Shown here: positions 2 through 7,245 of the stretch, piece by piece
How the letters are laid out: every line of letters starts with the position of its first letter
How positions within the stretch are numbered: the first letter of the stretch is position 1
NCBI GenBank assembly: GCA_018334075.1
Contig: JAGXSC010000078.1
Location: 1 to 64,000, forward strand
Direction: 5' to 3'
Source of the DNA: Actinomycetota bacterium
GTDB taxonomy: Bacteria > Actinomycetota > Coriobacteriia > Anaerosomatales > UBA912
DNA: 64,000 nucleotides
Made by a program: the position numbers and the translations under genes
Notes under the pieces: model-generated
What the model saw: only the letters and a program-made list of their open reading frames with translations
The model's database searches: none
What the model was told of the DNA's origin: nothing

Positions 2-418
2 AAGCTGTTTGAGCATCTTTCCGACCATTTCATACTCTTCGGGGAATGGTGCTATGCCCAGCACTCGGTTTTTTATGACCGTTTGCCGGATTGGTTCCTT
101 GGTTTCGATGTTTATGACAAACGATTTGGCCGATTTCTATCTTCAAAGCGTCGGGATGCTCTCTTTAGGGAAATGTGTGTTGCTCAAGTTCCTGTTCTCG
201 CACTCGGGCACTTCGCATACCCGGAAGTTCAAAAATTCCTATCGACCTCAAAACTCAGTGATCAGCCTGCGGAAGGCATCTATCTCCGATTTAGCCAAGA
301 TGACTGGCTGGCGCAACGGTCCAAACTGGTTCGTCCGGCATTTATCCAGGCTGTGGAGCAGCACTGGTCACGCTCCGCCATCAGGCCAAACCGGCTGACA
401 CTGGAGCTTCAAGGATGA
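2..418 (+). CDS. RNA ligase family protein, C-terminal part (5' end outside window)
   Basis: Reading frame 2 is open from the first bases, so the start lies upstream; 138 residues are visible. LFGEWCYAQHSVFYDRLPDW and GFDVYDK match the region around nucleotidyltransferase motifs III/IIIa of T4 Rnl2/DRB0094-like RNA ligases. AEGIYLRF fits motif IV and SKLVRPAF fits motif V (KxVR), followed by the usual tail with EHW and N-R-L residues. The family seals RNA nicks through a ligase-adenylate; the motif I lysine would be outside the window. The stop codon overlaps the helicase ATG (ATGA), so the two genes are probably co-translated. Family assignment is by motif reading only. Confidence 0.72.
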   Translation, partial: KLFEHLSDHFILFGEWCYAQHSVFYDRLPDWFLGFDVYDKRFGRFLSSKRRDALFREMCVAQVPVLALGHFAYPEVQKFLSTSKLSDQPAEGIYLRFSQDDWLAQRSKLVRPAFIQAVEQHWSRSAIRPNRLTLELQG

Positions 419-3369
419 AATCTCCCAGCGTTGGTCAGGAGTGGCAATACAGCACCGTTCATAACAGCGCATGCAAGGTCATCGAAGAACAGACCTTGTG
501 GGGGCAGGCGGTGTGCCGTGTCTGGTTGCCGAACCAGGACGCGATGGTGCGCGTGCCTCGCTCCGCCTTGCGGCCGCTGAGTGCCGATCTGCAGCCGGAG
601 ATCGAGGCTGGACGCATTGCCTATGTGGCCGCCGCAGCCAAGGTGGCCGAGGTGCTTGAAGGCTCTACCAGCGCCACCGAGGGCCATGTATTGCTGGCTC
701 CCATGGAGTCCAACGTCATTCCGCTGCCTCACCAGATCCGCGCCTTGTCACGGGCCATCTCCGGCGACCGCGTGCGCTACCTGCTGGCCGACGAGGTGGG
801 TCTCGGCAAGACCATCGAGGCCGGGCTGGTCATGCGCGAGCTTAAGCAGCGCGGGCTGGCGCGCCGAACCCTGGTCGTCTCGCCAAAAGGCATCGCCACC
901 CAGTGGGTGGCGGAAATGCAGACCCATTTCAACGAACAGTTCCAACTCGTGCTGGGCGACGATATGGCAACGCTTGGTCGCGTTGCCAGTGCGATGTGCG
1001 AAGTGCGTAGTGCAGTTTCAGAACAAACGCACCTCGCACCGCGCACTCCGCACTTGCGAAGCAATCCTTGGTTGCTTTTTGACCAAGTGATTGTTTCGCT
1101 TGATTCGGTCAAACCCATGGACAAGCGGCGCGGCTGGACGGCCGAGCGCGTTGCCGAATACAACTGCAGCCGGTTCGAGGATCTGATTACCGCTGGTTGG
1201 GATCTGGTGATCGTGGACGAAGCGCACCGCCTGGGCGGCAGCACCGATCAGGTCGCCCGCTACAAGCTCGGCAAGGGGCTGGCGGAGGCCGCGCCCTATG
1301 TGCTGCTCCTTTCGGCTACACCCCATCAGGGGAAGACCGACGCCTTCCATCGCCTGATGAACCTGCTGGACAACGACGCCTTCCCGGACATGGACAGCGT
1401 CTCACGCGACCGGGTGGCTCCGTATGTTATCCGTACTGAGAAGCGCAAGACAATTGATGCCGACGGCAAGCCGCTCTTTAAACCCCGGCGCACGCAGATG
1501 GCCCCGGTGGCCTGGGAGAGCCGTCACCACTTGCAGCGGCTTCTCTACGAAGCGGTGACCGATTATGTCCGCGAGGGCTACAACCAGGCCCTGCGCGAAA
1601 AGAAGCGCCACATCGGCTTTCTGATGATCCTGATGCAGCGCCTGGTGGTCTCCAGCACCCGGGCGATCCGCACCACGCTGGAACGGCGGCTCGCCGCGCT
1701 CAAGGAAGGCGAACAGCAGGTTAGCCTACGCCTGGCGGAACTGGAAAATGGCGTGGATGGATCGGAAAACTTCGACGAGATCTACGACATGGACGGGCAG
1801 GAGCTGCTCGATGAGCTGCTGAAATCCCATGTGTCGGCTCTGCAGAGCGAAGGCAGCCATGTTGAGACCCTGCTCGATGCGGCAGTCCGTTGTGAGCAAG
1901 CTGGCCCCGACGCCAAGGCTGAGGCGCTGATCGAGTGGATCCACAAGCTGCAAGCAGAGGAAAACGAGCCGGATCTAAAGGTGTTGATCTTCACGGAGTT
2001 CGTTCCCACCCAGCAAATGTTGAAGGAATTTCTTGAGGCACGGGGAATCTCTGTGGTCACTCTGAACGGCTCCATGGACATGGAGGAACGTGGGGCAGCA
2101 CAGGATGCCTTTCGCAGATCGCACCGCGTGCTAGTTTCCACCGACGCGGGCGGTGAGGGTCTGAACCTACAGTTCGCTCATGTCGTCATCAACTACGACA
2201 TCCCCTGGAACCCGATGCGGTTGGAGCAGCGTATCGGTCGCGTGGACCGTATCGGCCAGCCAAAAACCGTACAGGCGATCAATTTCGTGCTTGAGGATTC
2301 GGTCGAGTTCCGTGTGCGCGAAGTGCTGGAGCAGAAGCTCTCGGTGATCTTCGAAGAGTTCGGAATCGACAAGACCGGCGACGTCCTCGACTCGGCCCAG
2401 GCCGGTGAGTTGTTCGAGGATGTGTTTGCCTCGGCCATCCTTAATCCTGACGGCATCGAAACCTCCGTCGATCACACGGTGGCCAGGATTCGCGATGAGA
2501 TACAGCAGGTGCGCGAAACCTCCGCCATCTATGGCATCTCGGAAGAGCCGGATGTACAGGCGGCTGAGCGTTTACGCTCCCATCCACTGCCCCACTGGGT
2601 GGAGAGGATGACGGTAGGTTACCTCAATTCGCACGGCGGCGCGGCCAGTCGTAAGCGCTCCTGGTGGGATCTGAATTGGCCGGATGGCCAGGAACATCGC
2701 AAGGCCGTGTTCAACGCCCGGGAAGCGGATCGCCTGACCGACGCAACCCTACTCAACCTCGAAAACACTCGCGTCCGTGGGCTGGCCTTGAACCTGCCGC
2801 AGATCGTGGCAGGCCAGCCATTGCCTTGCGTAACCGTGAGCGGGCTGCCAGCCAGTATCTCCGGGCTCTGGGGGCTCTTTGAGATCCGCCTTCAGGCCGG
2901 AATGCACCAGAAGACAAACCTCCTGCGCATCCCCGTGGTGCGGCGGGGTTATGTCAGTGTGTTCTTGAGCGAGGAAGATAAACTGTTTCTGCCCACAGCC
3001 CGGCATATCTGGGATTCGCTGCAGACAGCGGAAGCCGAGGTGCAGGCAACCCTCGATCAGGATGAATCCGTTGCCGCCCACGAGCGTTTACAGATTGCTG
3101 CCGAACAGGCCGGACAGGAGCTGTTCGAGGCCCTGCAGCAGGCGCACATCGCCTCTATGGCTCGCGAGGAGGAACGCGGAACCGCTTCATTTGCTTCGCG
3201 CCGCAAGGCCATTGAGCGGGTTGGATTGCCGGAGGTGCGGCAATTTAGGCTGTCTCGTTGCGATGCAGACGAATCCGAATGGAGACATGAACTTCAGTCA
3301 GCTCGACAGATCGTGCCTGAAATCCGGCCGCTGTTGATGCTGCGGATCATCAAGGGAGGCGCTCAATGA
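415..3369 (+). CDS. SNF2/DEAH-family helicase-ATPase (DrmD/BrxHII-like)
   Basis: A 984-aa superfamily 2 translocase of the SNF2/RapA type. Visible motifs: DEVGLGKT (Walker A, about 126-133), VDEAH (Walker B, about 267-271), SATP (about 300), LIFTEF (motif IV), STDAGGEGLNL (motif V, about 573) and QRIGRVDRIGQ (motif VI, about 605-615). The C-terminal ~350 residues are charged and unassigned. Similar large helicases are found in DISARM (DrmD) and type 3 BREX (BrxHII). The gene overlaps the RNA ligase upstream and pglZ downstream by 4 bases each, indicating one operon. Oddity: residues about 192-216 are encoded by a GTGCG-rich inverted repeat inserted in frame. Confidence 0.88.
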   Translation: MKSPSVGQEWQYSTVHNSACKVIEEQTLWGQAVCRVWLPNQDAMVRVPRSALRPLSADLQPEIEAGRIAYVAAAAKVAEVLEGSTSATEGHVLLAPMESNVIPLPHQIRALSRAISGDRVRYLLADEVGLGKTIEAGLVMRELKQRGLARRTLVVSPKGIATQWVAEMQTHFNEQFQLVLGDDMATLGRVASAMCEVRSAVSEQTHLAPRTPHLRSNPWLLFDQVIVSLDSVKPMDKRRGWTAERVAEYNCSRFEDLITAGWDLVIVDEAHRLGGSTDQVARYKLGKGLAEAAPYVLLLSATPHQGKTDAFHRLMNLLDNDAFPDMDSVSRDRVAPYVIRTEKRKTIDADGKPLFKPRRTQMAPVAWESRHHLQRLLYEAVTDYVREGYNQALREKKRHIGFLMILMQRLVVSSTRAIRTTLERRLAALKEGEQQVSLRLAELENGVDGSENFDEIYDMDGQELLDELLKSHVSALQSEGSHVETLLDAAVRCEQAGPDAKAEALIEWIHKLQAEENEPDLKVLIFTEFVPTQQMLKEFLEARGISVVTLNGSMDMEERGAAQDAFRRSHRVLVSTDAGGEGLNLQFAHVVINYDIPWNPMRLEQRIGRVDRIGQPKTVQAINFVLEDSVEFRVREVLEQKLSVIFEEFGIDKTGDVLDSAQAGELFEDVFASAILNPDGIETSVDHTVARIRDEIQQVRETSAIYGISEEPDVQAAERLRSHPLPHWVERMTVGYLNSHGGAASRKRSWWDLNWPDGQEHRKAVFNAREADRLTDATLLNLENTRVRGLALNLPQIVAGQPLPCVTVSGLPASISGLWGLFEIRLQAGMHQKTNLLRIPVVRRGYVSVFLSEEDKLFLPTARHIWDSLQTAEAEVQATLDQDESVAAHERLQIAAEQAGQELFEALQQAHIASMAREEERGTASFASRRKAIERVGLPEVRQFRLSRCDADESEWRHELQSARQIVPEIRPLLMLRIIKGGAQ
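991..1058. repeat. In-frame GTGCG-rich inverted repeat (REP/MITE-like) inside the helicase gene
   Basis: The left arm at 996-1013 reads as GTGCG/AAGTGCG/TAGTGC units. The right arm at 1041-1058 is its imperfect reverse complement (GCGCACTCCGCACTTGCG). About 27 bases separate them. It falls between motifs Ia and II of the helicase and encodes a low-complexity segment (MCEVRSAV ... APRTPHLRS) between LGRVAS and NPWLLFDQV. The reading frame is kept. Such palindromes are usually dispersed extragenic repeats; only this copy was noticed in the window. Confidence 0.5.
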
Positions 3370-5360
3370 ATAGTTGGCGAGACGCCATCCTGAGCGATTT
3401 TGTACCCAACGTCAGCAAGTTGACCCTGGTCGCAGATCCTGATGGTCTGCTGACCGAGGAGAAGCTGGCATTGGAGCTTCTAGGGCGCGGGTTCGACCTA
3501 ATTGAGTTTAGTGACTCGGTCGAATTCAGATACGCCTATGAGTCCAGGTACCGCTCGATCTGGGACCGGGGCGAACACACCGATCTGGTGGTGATTCTCA
3601 GGTTGCAAGGTGCCGATCTGGAATCCCTGCCATACGATCTGCTCCAGGCGGGCCGGAAACTATCGTTCAACTTGGGGGATCTCTTTCCCAACCTGAGCTA
3701 TCCGGTCATTGAAAAGCTCGACAGGAGCTTGCTGGATTCGCTTTTTGAGGCTCAGCGCAAGGCGCCACCAGATCGCATGGGCGACAACGCAACCAAGGAT
3801 TTCATTCTCCGTCATGTGTTCGGCATTGCGGCGGAGCTGATTAGGGGCGAGGTTGAGCTGCTTCCTGCCCTGCTGCGCCTGCACTACGGCAAGCTTCAGC
3901 TACCGTTGATACTGGCCGAGCGGCTCATCCAGGTTCTCAAGGGGCATGATAGGTTCAAAACTTGGCCGCTCTCGGAAATCATTCCGGACGATGAAGCCTT
4001 CTTCGCCTTTTTGCAGGAACGCTGGCCGCTATTTCTTTCCAGGCTCGGCAGCGCCAATCAGGTGCGGGAAGATTCGCCGGAATATGGCCTCAAGTATCCC
4101 GGCCCTGATAGTCTGCCACTCGACCACCAGGACATTAGGGTTTACATCGATAACCTGTTCCTGGAGGGGAAACTTACCCCTGTCGAGGCCAAAGGCATTG
4201 AAGTGGATGCCGGGTCCTGGGTTCGAAGCGGCATCGCCACGTCCGGCGTGGACGATGACGAGCTGAGGATCTCCCGCTTGTTTGACCTTGTTGAGAAGGA
4301 GCTGCCCACTGCGGAAGCGCGTTACTTGGATTGGACCGCCTTTGCATTGAAATGGGCTGAGCTGTCTTCGCTGGTTCATTGTGGCAATAGCACCGAGTAT
4401 CAGAATCGCCTCAGAGAAATCGGCGATGCACTGAACACGACCTTTGCCGGCTGGTTGGCTGATCACTACTCCAGTCTGATCAATTTGCCGCCGAACAATC
4501 CGGCCATGCTGCACCATGTGCCGCGTCGCCTGGCTCGGGATATCGAGGATTCCGGCAGTGGCCGTGCAGCGCTGATCGTGGTCGATGGTCTGGCCCTGGA
4601 TCAGTGGGTGACCATGCGCCAGCTTCTGCAAAAGCAGGATTCCAATCTGGTTATGCGCGAATCCGCGACCTTCGCCTGGATTCCGACGCTGACATCGGTA
4701 TCGCGACAATCGATCTTTTCGGGCAAGGCACCGCTCTATTTCCCGTCATCCATCAATTCGACCAACAGTGAAGAGAAGCTTTGGAGGAAGTTCTGGGAAG
4801 GCTATGGCTTGTCTCGGCTGGAGGTTGTCTACAAGCGCGGCCTTGGCGACGGCGATGCTGCCGGCACCCTCGACTCCGCAACCCACCCGGGGAAGACCAA
4901 GGTGGTGGGGCTGGTTGTGGACAAGGTCGACAAGATCATGCACGGCATGCAACTCGGCTCGCCCGGGATGCATAACCAGATCAAGCAGTGGTGCGAAGGT
5001 GGGTTCCTAGCAGCCCTAGTCGGCCAACTGCTGGATTACGGCTATGAGGTTTGGCTGACGGCCGATCATGGCAACATCCAATGTGACGGCAAAGGCCGCC
5101 CATCCGAAGGTGTGATTGCCGAGACTCGCGGCGAGAGGGTTCGTGTCTATCCCACGCCGGAGCTCCGCGCCCAGGTGGCGGGGGCATTTCCATTTGCCCA
5201 CGAGTGGCAGCCGATTGGATTGCCAGCAGATTATTTCCCACTGGTGGCTGGCGGCCGCGACGCATTCGTGAACCCGGGAGATGTCATCGTAGGTCACGGC
5301 GGTGCAGCCATTGAAGAAGTCATCGTGCCCCTTGTGAAGTTTGAAAGGAGAGCACGGTGA
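3366..5360 (+). CDS. pglZ: PglZ-domain protein (alkaline phosphatase superfamily)
   Basis: A 664-aa protein whose C-terminal half carries the PglZ/alkaline-phosphatase fold: IVVDGLALDQW with metal-binding Asp at about 407, TADHGN with Asp/His at about 567-568, and GHGGAAIEEVIVPLVKF with His at about 644 near the C terminus. PglZ is the hallmark of Pgl/BREX phage-exclusion systems and also occurs in two-component-linked proteins; its biochemical role is poorly understood. The N-terminal ~380 residues look helical and are unassigned. The gene overlaps the helicase stop (ATGA) and is followed immediately by the next gene at a TGATG junction. Position and neighbours match the brxHII-pglZ-brxA order of type 3 BREX. 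Confidence 0.88.
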   Translation: MNSWRDAILSDFVPNVSKLTLVADPDGLLTEEKLALELLGRGFDLIEFSDSVEFRYAYESRYRSIWDRGEHTDLVVILRLQGADLESLPYDLLQAGRKLSFNLGDLFPNLSYPVIEKLDRSLLDSLFEAQRKAPPDRMGDNATKDFILRHVFGIAAELIRGEVELLPALLRLHYGKLQLPLILAERLIQVLKGHDRFKTWPLSEIIPDDEAFFAFLQERWPLFLSRLGSANQVREDSPEYGLKYPGPDSLPLDHQDIRVYIDNLFLEGKLTPVEAKGIEVDAGSWVRSGIATSGVDDDELRISRLFDLVEKELPTAEARYLDWTAFALKWAELSSLVHCGNSTEYQNRLREIGDALNTTFAGWLADHYSSLINLPPNNPAMLHHVPRRLARDIEDSGSGRAALIVVDGLALDQWVTMRQLLQKQDSNLVMRESATFAWIPTLTSVSRQSIFSGKAPLYFPSSINSTNSEEKLWRKFWEGYGLSRLEVVYKRGLGDGDAAGTLDSATHPGKTKVVGLVVDKVDKIMHGMQLGSPGMHNQIKQWCEGGFLAALVGQLLDYGYEVWLTADHGNIQCDGKGRPSEGVIAETRGERVRVYPTPELRAQVAGAFPFAHEWQPIGLPADYFPLVAGGRDAFVNPGDVIVGHGGAAIEEVIVPLVKFERRAR

Positions 5361-6121
5361 TGGGCAAAAGACATGAAGCCATTGGCATCAAGCAGGCTAT
5401 CCGTTTCGAGTGGATACAGAAAGCACCCAATCTGCTGTTGGCGGGGCTCGACGCCAAAACCATCCGCCAGGAGCTGAATGAGTTCCTCGCGGACAGAAAA
5501 GGCAACGGCTCAGAGGGCGAACGAAGCGATCAGACCCGGACATTTGTCGTCAACAATCTGATGAAGATATGGGTCTCTCCTGACCCCGAGCTGATTCCAT
5601 TCCGGGATGCCTCGCTGGCGTTTCTGCGGGAAAACCCGTCCATGGCTCTGGTGGTCCACTGGGGGATGATCTCGGCTGTCTACCCCTTCTGGTTCAATGT
5701 GGCCCGGCAGACTGGCCGCTTGTTGGCCTTGCAGGATCAGGTGACCCAGGCGCAGATCATCAATCGCATGAAGGAACAGTATGGCGACCGGCAAACTATT
5801 TTTCGATATGGTCGGTACGTATTACGATCGTTTGTGGCATGGGGTGTATTGCAGGATTCCGAGGCAAAAGGCTGCTACGAGAAGGCCGCTCCTGTGAGCA
5901 TTGTCGAGCCAAACCTGGCCATCATGATGCTCGAGTCCGCACTCCTGGCCACCCCGGAGGCCAAGGGCGCACTGGGTCTGCTTCTAAACAACCCGGCATT
6001 CTTCCCATTCCAGCTTCCAACGATGACCGGTGATTTTGTGTCCCAGCGCAGTGAACGGATCGATGTGATTCGCTATGGACTGGACGATGAGCTGTTGAAG
6101 TTGAAGGATCAGCAAAAATGA
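5360..6121 (+). CDS. Unrecognised ~253-aa protein of the PglZ operon, possible BrxA-like winged-helix protein
   Basis: I do not recognise this protein from sequence alone. It begins with KRHEAIGIKQAIRFEW, contains a helical middle with FRDASLAFLRENP and HWGMISAVYPFWF, and has a segment around RMKEQYGDRQTIFRYGRYVL-RSFVAWGVLQD that could form a winged helix. In type 3 BREX the gene after pglZ is brxA (DUF1819, a DNA-binding winged-helix protein), so this position suggests an equivalent. That is inference from order. A GTG at 5357 is an equally possible start; AAGGAG at 5345-5350 serves both. The stop overlaps the ATG of a further, truncated ORF. Confidence 0.7.
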   Translation: MGKRHEAIGIKQAIRFEWIQKAPNLLLAGLDAKTIRQELNEFLADRKGNGSEGERSDQTRTFVVNNLMKIWVSPDPELIPFRDASLAFLRENPSMALVVHWGMISAVYPFWFNVARQTGRLLALQDQVTQAQIINRMKEQYGDRQTIFRYGRYVLRSFVAWGVLQDSEAKGCYEKAAPVSIVEPNLAIMMLESALLATPEAKGALGLLLNNPAFFPFQLPTMTGDFVSQRSERIDVIRYGLDDELLKLKDQQK

Positions 6122-6210
6122 ACATAGCCACCGAACAGATTCCGAGCCCAGCTCGACTCGCCAAGCTCGTTGTCTTTTCTTCACCGCGAACATATAATGC
6201 TGGCAGGTAA
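6118..6210 (+). pseudogene. Truncated fifth gene of the PglZ operon (N-terminal codons only)
   Basis: An ATG at 6118 overlaps the preceding stop as ATGA, exactly like the other junctions of this operon. It opens MNIATEQIPSPARLAKL, a plausible N terminus of an operon protein, but stops after 30 codons. A strong promoter starts at 6170 within the frame, so the last dozen codons (VVFSSPRTYNAGR) probably belong to resident DNA. I read this as the 5' stub of a gene cut off where the foreign module meets the chromosome, with the junction between about 6150 and 6172. Confidence 0.5.
6170..6198 (+). promoter_or_regulatory. Sigma-70-type promoter at the module/chromosome boundary
   Basis: TTGTCT (6170-6175), a 17-base spacer and a consensus TATAAT (6193-6198). 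It precedes the small ORF at 6234 and its strong Shine-Dalgarno, so it probably drives the 6234-7670 genes. Confidence 0.65.
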
Positions 6211-6233: not shown

Positions 6234-6362
6234 ATGGACGAGCAAGCAGTGGCCCAGACCTTGACAGAGGAGAGCTCGGGCTCCTTGCAGGATCACACTT
6301 GTACCGCGGTCATCGACGATATTGTTGCGCAGACTTCCGAAGACGCCTGGGACGCGGAGTAG
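6234..6362 (+). CDS. Small acidic 42-aa protein or leader peptide
   Basis: ATG at 6234 follows a GGAGGAG Shine-Dalgarno at ideal spacing and lies 36 bases downstream of a consensus -10 box, so translation is likely. The product has 42 residues, is strongly acidic (many Asp/Glu, one Cys, one Trp, no Lys or Arg) and ends AWDAE. No family recognised. It immediately precedes a URO-D-like gene that lacks a good ribosome binding site. It could be a small regulatory protein, a translational leader, or the N terminus of the downstream gene separated by a frameshift; the last is the least natural, because acidic extensions are unusual in that family. Confidence 0.55.
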   Translation: MDEQAVAQTLTEESSGSLQDHTCTAVIDDIVAQTSEDAWDAE

Positions 6363-6408
6363 TCATAGCAGGCTGCTTCCTGGCACTTCCAGCTCACGCG
6401 CACGATCG

Positions 6409-7245
6409 TTGACGCATATCTTGCCGCCTGTCGGCTTTACATTCCTTCCACTGCTGGCAGTCGAGGCTCTAAGGTGGGGCCGAGGTTCCGCGCCGTCGCT
6501 TTATGCGGCCGCTTGCAAGCGTCTCGATCTTGACTTTGTGTTTTTGCCGGCGTCTGAACCTTGGGCTAAGGACGCCATCGATTGTGTCATCGCAGCGGGA
6601 ACCGCCCCATTTTGGGTGGTAAGCGGGCCTTTTGGCGCGGTGGCGAACCGGGATGGCTGGATTGAGTCCCTCCGCGCGACCGAATCAAATCCCCAGATGA
6701 TCGCCGGCCAGATGGATGCCGTCATGCCGGACCTGCTCGAACAGGCGCTAAGCGGCGCTCGGCTCGGCGCGGCAGCTATAGTTATCGCCGAGGATGTGGC
6801 CGGGGCAAACGGCCCCCTGCTCGCTCCCGACTTCGTTCTTCGCGAACTCGTGCCCAGAGCCGGCCGGCTGGCCGCGATCGCGCACAGCCATTCGGTAGCG
6901 AGCGTGTTTCATTCGGATGGCGATGTGCGATTCGCGCTTCCCGCACTAAAGCAGCAGGGATTTTCAGCGGTGCACCCTGGCGGACTTTGCCACTCCGACT
7001 TCGAAGATTTTACCCGCGAAGCCGCCCTGTTGGATCTTGCGGTTCTCGGCGGTATTGACGGCGAGACACTGCGTTCGCAGGATTTTTCGCCACAAAAGAT
7101 AAGTGATCGACTCTTGGCTTTGACGCGGTGCGGTAAAGTGCTGATAGCCGATGACGGCGGTATGACCGGCGCCGAAGAACTTGTGAATTTTGAGATTTTT
7201 CTGCACGCTTGGCGTGCGACTCAAAGAGATGAGGAGGCGAAGTGA
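6409..7245 (+). CDS. Uroporphyrinogen decarboxylase (URO-D)-like / methylcobamide methyltransferase-like protein
   Basis: The body shows a URO-D-type barrel: PVGFTFLPLLAVEALRWG near the N terminus, APFWVVSGPFG, VIAEDVAG, the characteristic VFHSDGDVRFALPAL-KQQGFSAVHP segment, LAVLGGIDGETL and GKVLIADDGG near the end. The family includes heme-pathway decarboxylases and MtaA-like corrinoid methyltransferases; this divergent member is probably not HemE, and its substrate is unknown. The frame is open from a TTG at 6322, but the first ~29 codons there overlap the small ORF and look non-coding, so TTG 6409 is chosen tentatively. No clear Shine-Dalgarno. The stop overlaps the GTG of the next gene. 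Confidence 0.68.
   Translation: MTHILPPVGFTFLPLLAVEALRWGRGSAPSLYAAACKRLDLDFVFLPASEPWAKDAIDCVIAAGTAPFWVVSGPFGAVANRDGWIESLRATESNPQMIAGQMDAVMPDLLEQALSGARLGAAAIVIAEDVAGANGPLLAPDFVLRELVPRAGRLAAIAHSHSVASVFHSDGDVRFALPALKQQGFSAVHPGGLCHSDFEDFTREAALLDLAVLGGIDGETLRSQDFSPQKISDRLLALTRCGKVLIADDGGMTGAEELVNFEIFLHAWRATQRDEEAK

Follow-up and report, generated by a model that had tools for sequence, protein, structure and literature searches.

An RNA ligase gene in a type 3 BREX operon and its recurrent ATPase and predicted PIN nuclease partners

Some BREX loci carry additional ATPases and nucleases. In the main text of Rakesh & Krishnan (NAR 2026, PMC12839542), pairs of an OLD-ABC ATPase with a PIN or other nuclease are proposed as backup effectors in BREX loci, and PARIS, which cuts tRNA, is also placed in such loci. 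In the PrrC/T4 Pnk-Rnl1 system, a restriction-linked nuclease cuts RNA and an RNA ligase seals it, and repair also needs T4 Pnk (PMC3506569). A candidate system in PADLOC, HEC-03, contains two genes, HEC-03B and HEC-03A, for which the literature searched yielded a survey mention and no functional study. Here we analyze an RNA ligase gene at the edge of contig C78 (JAGXSC010000078.1) of an Actinomycetota genome assembled in 78 contigs (G000); the first 64 kb of this contig is the stretch studied, called the window below. The ligase gene lies directly before the type 3 BREX gene brxH and most likely ends a portable insert of three genes, ATPase-PIN-ligase (the cassette), that entered type 3 BREX many times.

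The locus has the six core genes of type 3 BREX, in canonical order on each of two contigs and with strong family matches, and differs from it in the extra cargo between pglX and brxH. As in candidate HEC-03, HEC-03B and HEC-03A precede the ligase in relatives; however, the ligase is outside the HEC-03 models, and HEC-03 is also found without a ligase. No other PADLOC model matches the ligase either. The modules of Rakesh & Krishnan likewise pair an ABC-type ATPase with a PIN RNase inside BREX operons, but the word "ligase" is absent from the main text of that paper. The cassette ATPase weakly resembles AriA of PARIS (AriA/AriB; 88-98 bits), but the cassette has no TOPRIM nuclease AriB, and has the PIN-like HEC-03A instead, followed by the ligase. 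The predicted RNA cleavage and RNA-ligase sealing are also features of PrrC/T4 Pnk-Rnl1. There, host and phage hold opposite halves, whereas the cassette has nuclease and ligase in one operon and no kinase. No report of DUF3696 together with an RNA ligase was found in the literature searched, which did not take in the 2016 paper of Burroughs & Aravind on RNA repair. Within these sources, an ATPase-PIN backup in BREX is already on record; a recurrent partner in the form of an RNA ligase seems to be new.

Recurrence and movement of the cassette

In 84,980 species genomes scanned, 225 relatives of the ligase were found; the best 80 of the 225 were kept for locus counts, and their gene content was determined by profile searches. 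The ATPase (HEC-03B), PIN (HEC-03A) and ligase genes occur together in 66 of the 80 loci, covering 14 named phyla with one archaeon among them. Six loci, from Burkholderiales, have PIN and ligase genes with no ATPase detected, and one of these (L097) is cut at a contig end. In all, a PIN-like neighbor of the ligase was found in 73 of the 80 loci, about 77 of which were testable. The genes are tightly packed: of 62 PIN-ligase pairs, 52 overlap and none lies more than 25 nt apart, and ATPase and PIN frames overlap in 45 of 55. In relatives, the two genes preceding the ligase match PADLOC models at 431-445 bits (HEC-03B) and 81-106 bits (HEC-03A). The ATPase is ABC/OLD-like (HEC-03B, DUF3696).

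At locus L107 (7914-10411), in a type 3 BREX of Akkermansia, the PADLOC candidate pair PDC-M07A/B precedes the same ligase, and the small protein of the pair starts with a PIN-like motif (ILDTSIL). To judge from this locus, several different ATPase-nuclease pairs may make use of the ligase.

The cassette is found both outside and inside BREX. Four plasmid homologs of the ligase (Azotobacter, Tistrella, Rhodococcus, Aeromonas; 41-47% identical) all follow the same two genes, one for an AAA ATPase (in most cases annotated as DUF3696) and one for a protein of ~175 aa, and BREX is not nearby. Sampled neighbors at non-BREX loci included type I specificity and methyltransferase subunits, PglX-like proteins and MADS-like proteins. 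The DNA of the Aeromonas cassette had no match in E. coli genomes. The DNA of the PIN gene of L037 had none in plasmids, a search for which comparison at the protein level is needed.

Within type 3 BREX, the cassette was found in 18 of the 80 loci, from at least seven phyla. On contigs that extend far enough, the cassette is followed by brxH as the next core gene, or by pglZ if brxH is missing or broken. The weaker cases among the 18 are L079 and L085, where the contig breaks off and only pglX is seen, L050, with pieces of the upstream genes, and L060, with weak matches to BREX models. When 77 ligases were placed on a maximum-likelihood tree and labeled as inside or outside BREX, the label switched at least eight times on well-supported branches; parsimony gives 14 changes, or 11 when only loci with enough flanking sequence are counted.

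The ligase, brxH and pglZ products of the window are 89-93% identical to those of their closest relatives, L037 and L036, from Synergistota and Verrucomicrobiota, and we therefore suggest that the whole nested operon moved between phyla recently. In L044, pglX is 94% identical to that of our genome and the ligase only 69% identical, which indicates that the cassette was exchanged. The slot before brxH can also hold other genes or none. In L020, from the same phylum as the window, brxH is 80% identical and the slot is filled by other genes; in the plasmid type 3 BREX loci L117 and L118, it is empty. The cargo in L020 (8625-11459, minus strand) consists of 397-aa and 254-aa proteins without a Pfam match and a 287-aa Ser/Thr kinase-like protein. 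The slot of L021, between pglX and brxH/pglZ, holds another DUF3696 ATPase and an uncharacterized protein of 351 aa. L065 apparently has a module of this second kind in tandem with the ligase cassette.

The type 3 BREX operon and its assembly gap

An earlier note on this DNA had described four overlapping genes at the start of the window (Table 1) as a candidate new defense system, in which an RNA ligase stood in place of the expected methyltransferase upstream of a helicase, a PglZ protein and an unrecognized protein of ~253 aa. The four frames are where the note placed them, with overlaps of 1-4 bases: adjacent frames share 4 bases, and the pglZ/brxA overlap is 1 base if brxA starts at its ATG. 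Pfam assigns the ligase, helicase and PglZ domains in these frames. PADLOC and NCBIfam matches bear out the order brxHII-pglZ-brxA that the note had proposed, and the unrecognized protein is full-length BrxA, 76-84% identical to BrxA of L036-L039. The position of brxH is conserved in L036-L039, L055 and L081. The four genes are a real operon, very likely with a role in defense; this much of the proposed new system stands, and its PglZ genes are those of an ordinary type 3 BREX. Among 397 genomes from the phylum of the window, about 5 gave strong matches to its PglZ family.

Table 1. Genes of the operon at the start of the window
Gene or product	Position	Strand	Family match
RNA ligase, C-terminal 138 aa	2..418	+	Pfam PF09414 RNA_ligase, 73.4 bits (cut-off 27)
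brxH, BrxHII-type SNF2 helicase, type 3 BREX	415..3369	+	PADLOC PDLC02500, 1621 bits, residues 8-981
pglZ, BREX-3 type	3366..5360	+	NCBIfam NF033449 BREX_PglZ_3, 900 bits (cut-off 250); PADLOC PDLC02558, 1104 bits
brxA, 254 aa	5357..6121	+	PADLOC PDLC02444, 394 bits, positions 1-250 of 251

The remaining core genes are on a second contig. Using pglX and brxC of the relative L020 as queries against the same genome, we found brxF (213 bits), brxC (2136 bits) and the N-terminus of pglX (587 bits) on contig C45. Of PglX, residues 1-388 are present; the gene runs off the contig end toward the break, and ~550 aa are missing. The genome thus contains all six core genes, brxF, brxC and pglX on C45 and brxH, pglZ and brxA in the window, although C45 and C78 are not joined in the assembly. 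Because of the genes found on C45, the PglZ genes here are best described, by sequence comparison, as part of a standard type 3 BREX operon that the assembly has split, and the idea that the ligase replaces the methyltransferase is rejected.

L037 has the unbroken operon, brxF-brxC-pglX-[cassette]-brxH-pglZ-brxA. Its DNA is 88% identical to the window over brxH-brxA, 93% identical over the ligase and the start of brxH, and 88% identical to C45 over brxF-brxC. Judged by L037, the gap spans ~3.9 kb and would contain the missing part of pglX, two further genes and the N-terminus of the ligase. From the relatives with a 93%-identical ligase, we infer that the two genes are those for the ATPase and the PIN protein.

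The BREX island borders ssrA, the tmRNA gene, which is a frequent integration site. On C45 (L025:8044-10223, minus strand), a gene for a RhuM-like protein (PADLOC PDC-S05, 492 bits) and a 157-aa type I methyltransferase remnant sit between brxF and the tmRNA gene (L025 9871-10223). A duplicate of the 3' end of ssrA, which would delimit the island, was sought near the brxA end and none was found. PF13156 (Mrr_cat_2), tried on the chance that a restriction gene was missing, had no match in the genome. On the other side of the operon, at window positions 6234-7245, a short frame starting at 6234 (MDEQAVAQTLTEESSGSLQDHTC..., ~42 aa) lies directly before a gene for a 307-aa protein with a weak 19-bit match to a methylcobalamin methyltransferase family; the two might encode a small peptide and a partner that modifies it.

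Predicted activities and alternative explanations

By its motifs and Rnl2-like fold, the ligase is predicted to be an ATP-dependent enzyme of the Rnl2 type. Its frame is open at the contig edge, so that the first ~91 residues are missing, including the KxDG lysine motif. Motifs III (LFGEWCYA), IV (EGIYLR) and V (SKLVR), which the earlier note had pointed out, are indeed visible, as is motif IIIa (FDVYD). The fragment is 93% identical to the full-length ligases of L036 and L037 (229 aa), which follow HEC-03B and HEC-03A in type 3 BREX. Motif I, EEKxDG, which lies beyond the contig edge in the window, is kept in 77 of 77 relatives; the KxDG lysine, EGxxxR and the motif V lysine are invariant in the same number of sequences. 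An AlphaFold model of the L037 ligase (pLDDT 91) matches NgrRnl from Naegleria, T4 Rnl2 and trypanosome TbREL1 (E 3e-8 to 1e-6), although its 229 aa fall short of the 317-340 residues of these matches at full length. The fragment in the window found no relative among viral contigs and nothing meaningful among PDB sequences. Viral contigs L123-L158, up to 436 kb long, carry stand-alone ligase homologs (~26-41% identical) without PIN or ATPase genes; these are a possible source of the cassette ligase, or possible phage antidotes.

HEC-03A has no Pfam assignment, and profile comparison, motifs and the order of strands and helices indicate that it is likely a PIN-domain RNase. An hhalign comparison with a PIN_3 protein set gave 95% over 140 columns with the candidate acids aligned, compared to 13% for PF01850 (PIN) and 0.1-0.5% for unrelated control profiles. 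These acids, D10, E61, D120 and D141, are kept in 63 of 63 HEC-03A sequences. The AlphaFold model (pLDDT 96) has the alternating strand-helix order of PIN domains.

We propose that type 3 BREX in this operon carries the nested ATPase-RNase-ligase cassette as a second, RNA-directed layer of defense, and we put the probability of this interpretation at roughly 0.55. BREX would handle modification-based DNA defense, and the cassette, in the accessory slot directly before brxH, would be a nested backup. The ATPase could sense infection, or inhibition of BREX, and release the RNase, which might then cut host or phage RNA, probably tRNA or another structured RNA. PIN nucleases hydrolyze RNA in a metal-dependent reaction that leaves 5'-phosphate and 3'-OH ends, and these are the ends that ATP-dependent RNA ligases join, so direct resealing should be possible. 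The cassette has no kinase or phosphatase, which fits breaks of this kind. Resealing might limit leaky toxicity or permit the cell to recover. More tentatively, we speculate that the cassette is a built-in cut-and-reseal module and a backup for BREX, in which the ATPase-controlled RNase arrests the infected cell and its own ligase makes the arrest reversible.

Several observations weigh against this interpretation. The ATPase and PIN genes were not seen in this genome: their expected location is the assembly gap, none is on other contigs, and a search of the genome with HEC-03B gave only an 18-bit match, of no weight. Four of the about 77 testable loci (L047, L076, L092, L112) have no recognizable PIN neighbor despite sufficient room. 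Conversely, an ATPase-PIN pair occurs without a ligase in L116, where an HNH gene follows PIN, and in L160, and L161 has a PIN match in a genome without a ligase match. Because such pairs exist without a ligase, tolerating the nuclease does not in itself require the ligase, which is an add-on and not an obligate antitoxin. Lastly, Foldseek searches with the HEC-03A model found no PIN structure in the PDB (best E 0.4) and nothing significant in the BFVD viral library, with most alignments from the two at an rmsd above 10 Å.

The ligase could instead be a general antidote, similar to T4 Pnk/Rnl1, for host tRNAs cut by other anticodon nucleases of phage or host, and merely travel with the ATPase and PIN genes. 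The Rnl2-type fold, the stand-alone homologs on phage contigs without a PIN gene and the ligase loci without one (L076, L092, L112) are all compatible with this view. However, most anticodon nucleases yield 2',3'-cyclic phosphate and 5'-OH ends that require a kinase and phosphatase, and the interval between pglX and brxH in L037 has room only for the ATPase, PIN and ligase genes. The PIN-like gene also adjoins the ligase in 73 of about 77 testable loci, with frames mostly overlapping. We consider this alternative unlikely, if the most credible of those we weighed. The earlier note had suggested the repair of tRNAs cleaved by phage nucleases; this is possible, but with no end-healing enzyme alongside it is less likely than sealing of breaks made by the cassette's own nuclease.

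It is more doubtful that the ligase takes part in the attack, by joining, circularizing or adenylylating the RNA fragments made by the nuclease or by modifying the nuclease itself. Such a role would be consistent with the tight order and overlap with the nuclease gene and with the adenylation residues, which are invariant in 77 of 77 sequences. Sealing, however, is the usual chemistry of Rnl2 enzymes, and we know of no precedent for an Rnl2-type ligase as a defense effector.

We also considered a separate PglZ-based system in which RNA repair is integral to the PglZ machinery. The ligase does overlap brxH-pglZ-brxA by 4 bases, and the arrangement recurs; indeed, the co-occurrence of the ligase with PglZ that the earlier note had proposed to look for is found in many unrelated genomes. 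But type 3 BREX exists without any cassette and the cassette exists at many loci without BREX; the partners of the ligase are the upstream ATPase and predicted PIN protein rather than PglZ. Together with the six core genes present in this genome, this refutes a separate system and makes repair integral to PglZ very improbable. Finally, that the ligase is a one-off passenger of the BREX island, connected to neither defense nor nuclease, has next to no probability and is rejected: this genome shows only the ligase end of the cassette, but the trio recurs in 66 of 80 loci from 14 named phyla with mostly overlapping frames and invariant active sites, and the ligase is in the same place in 18 BREX loci.

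Implications for BREX and RNA repair

The cassette explains the presence of an RNA repair gene inside BREX operons and gives the uncharacterized candidate HEC-03 a frequent third gene. Complete cassettes are small, about 2.6 kb, and occur in plasmids of cultured organisms such as Azotobacter and Aeromonas (L031 9790-12408 and L034 9786-12414, respectively). Their composition suggests a defense module that carries both RNA-cutting and RNA-mending enzymes. RNA-cleaving defense is usually seen as suicide or dormancy, and RNA repair as an antidote supplied by the phage. A widespread predicted RNase accompanied by a directly compatible ligase suggests that hosts may carry their own reset.

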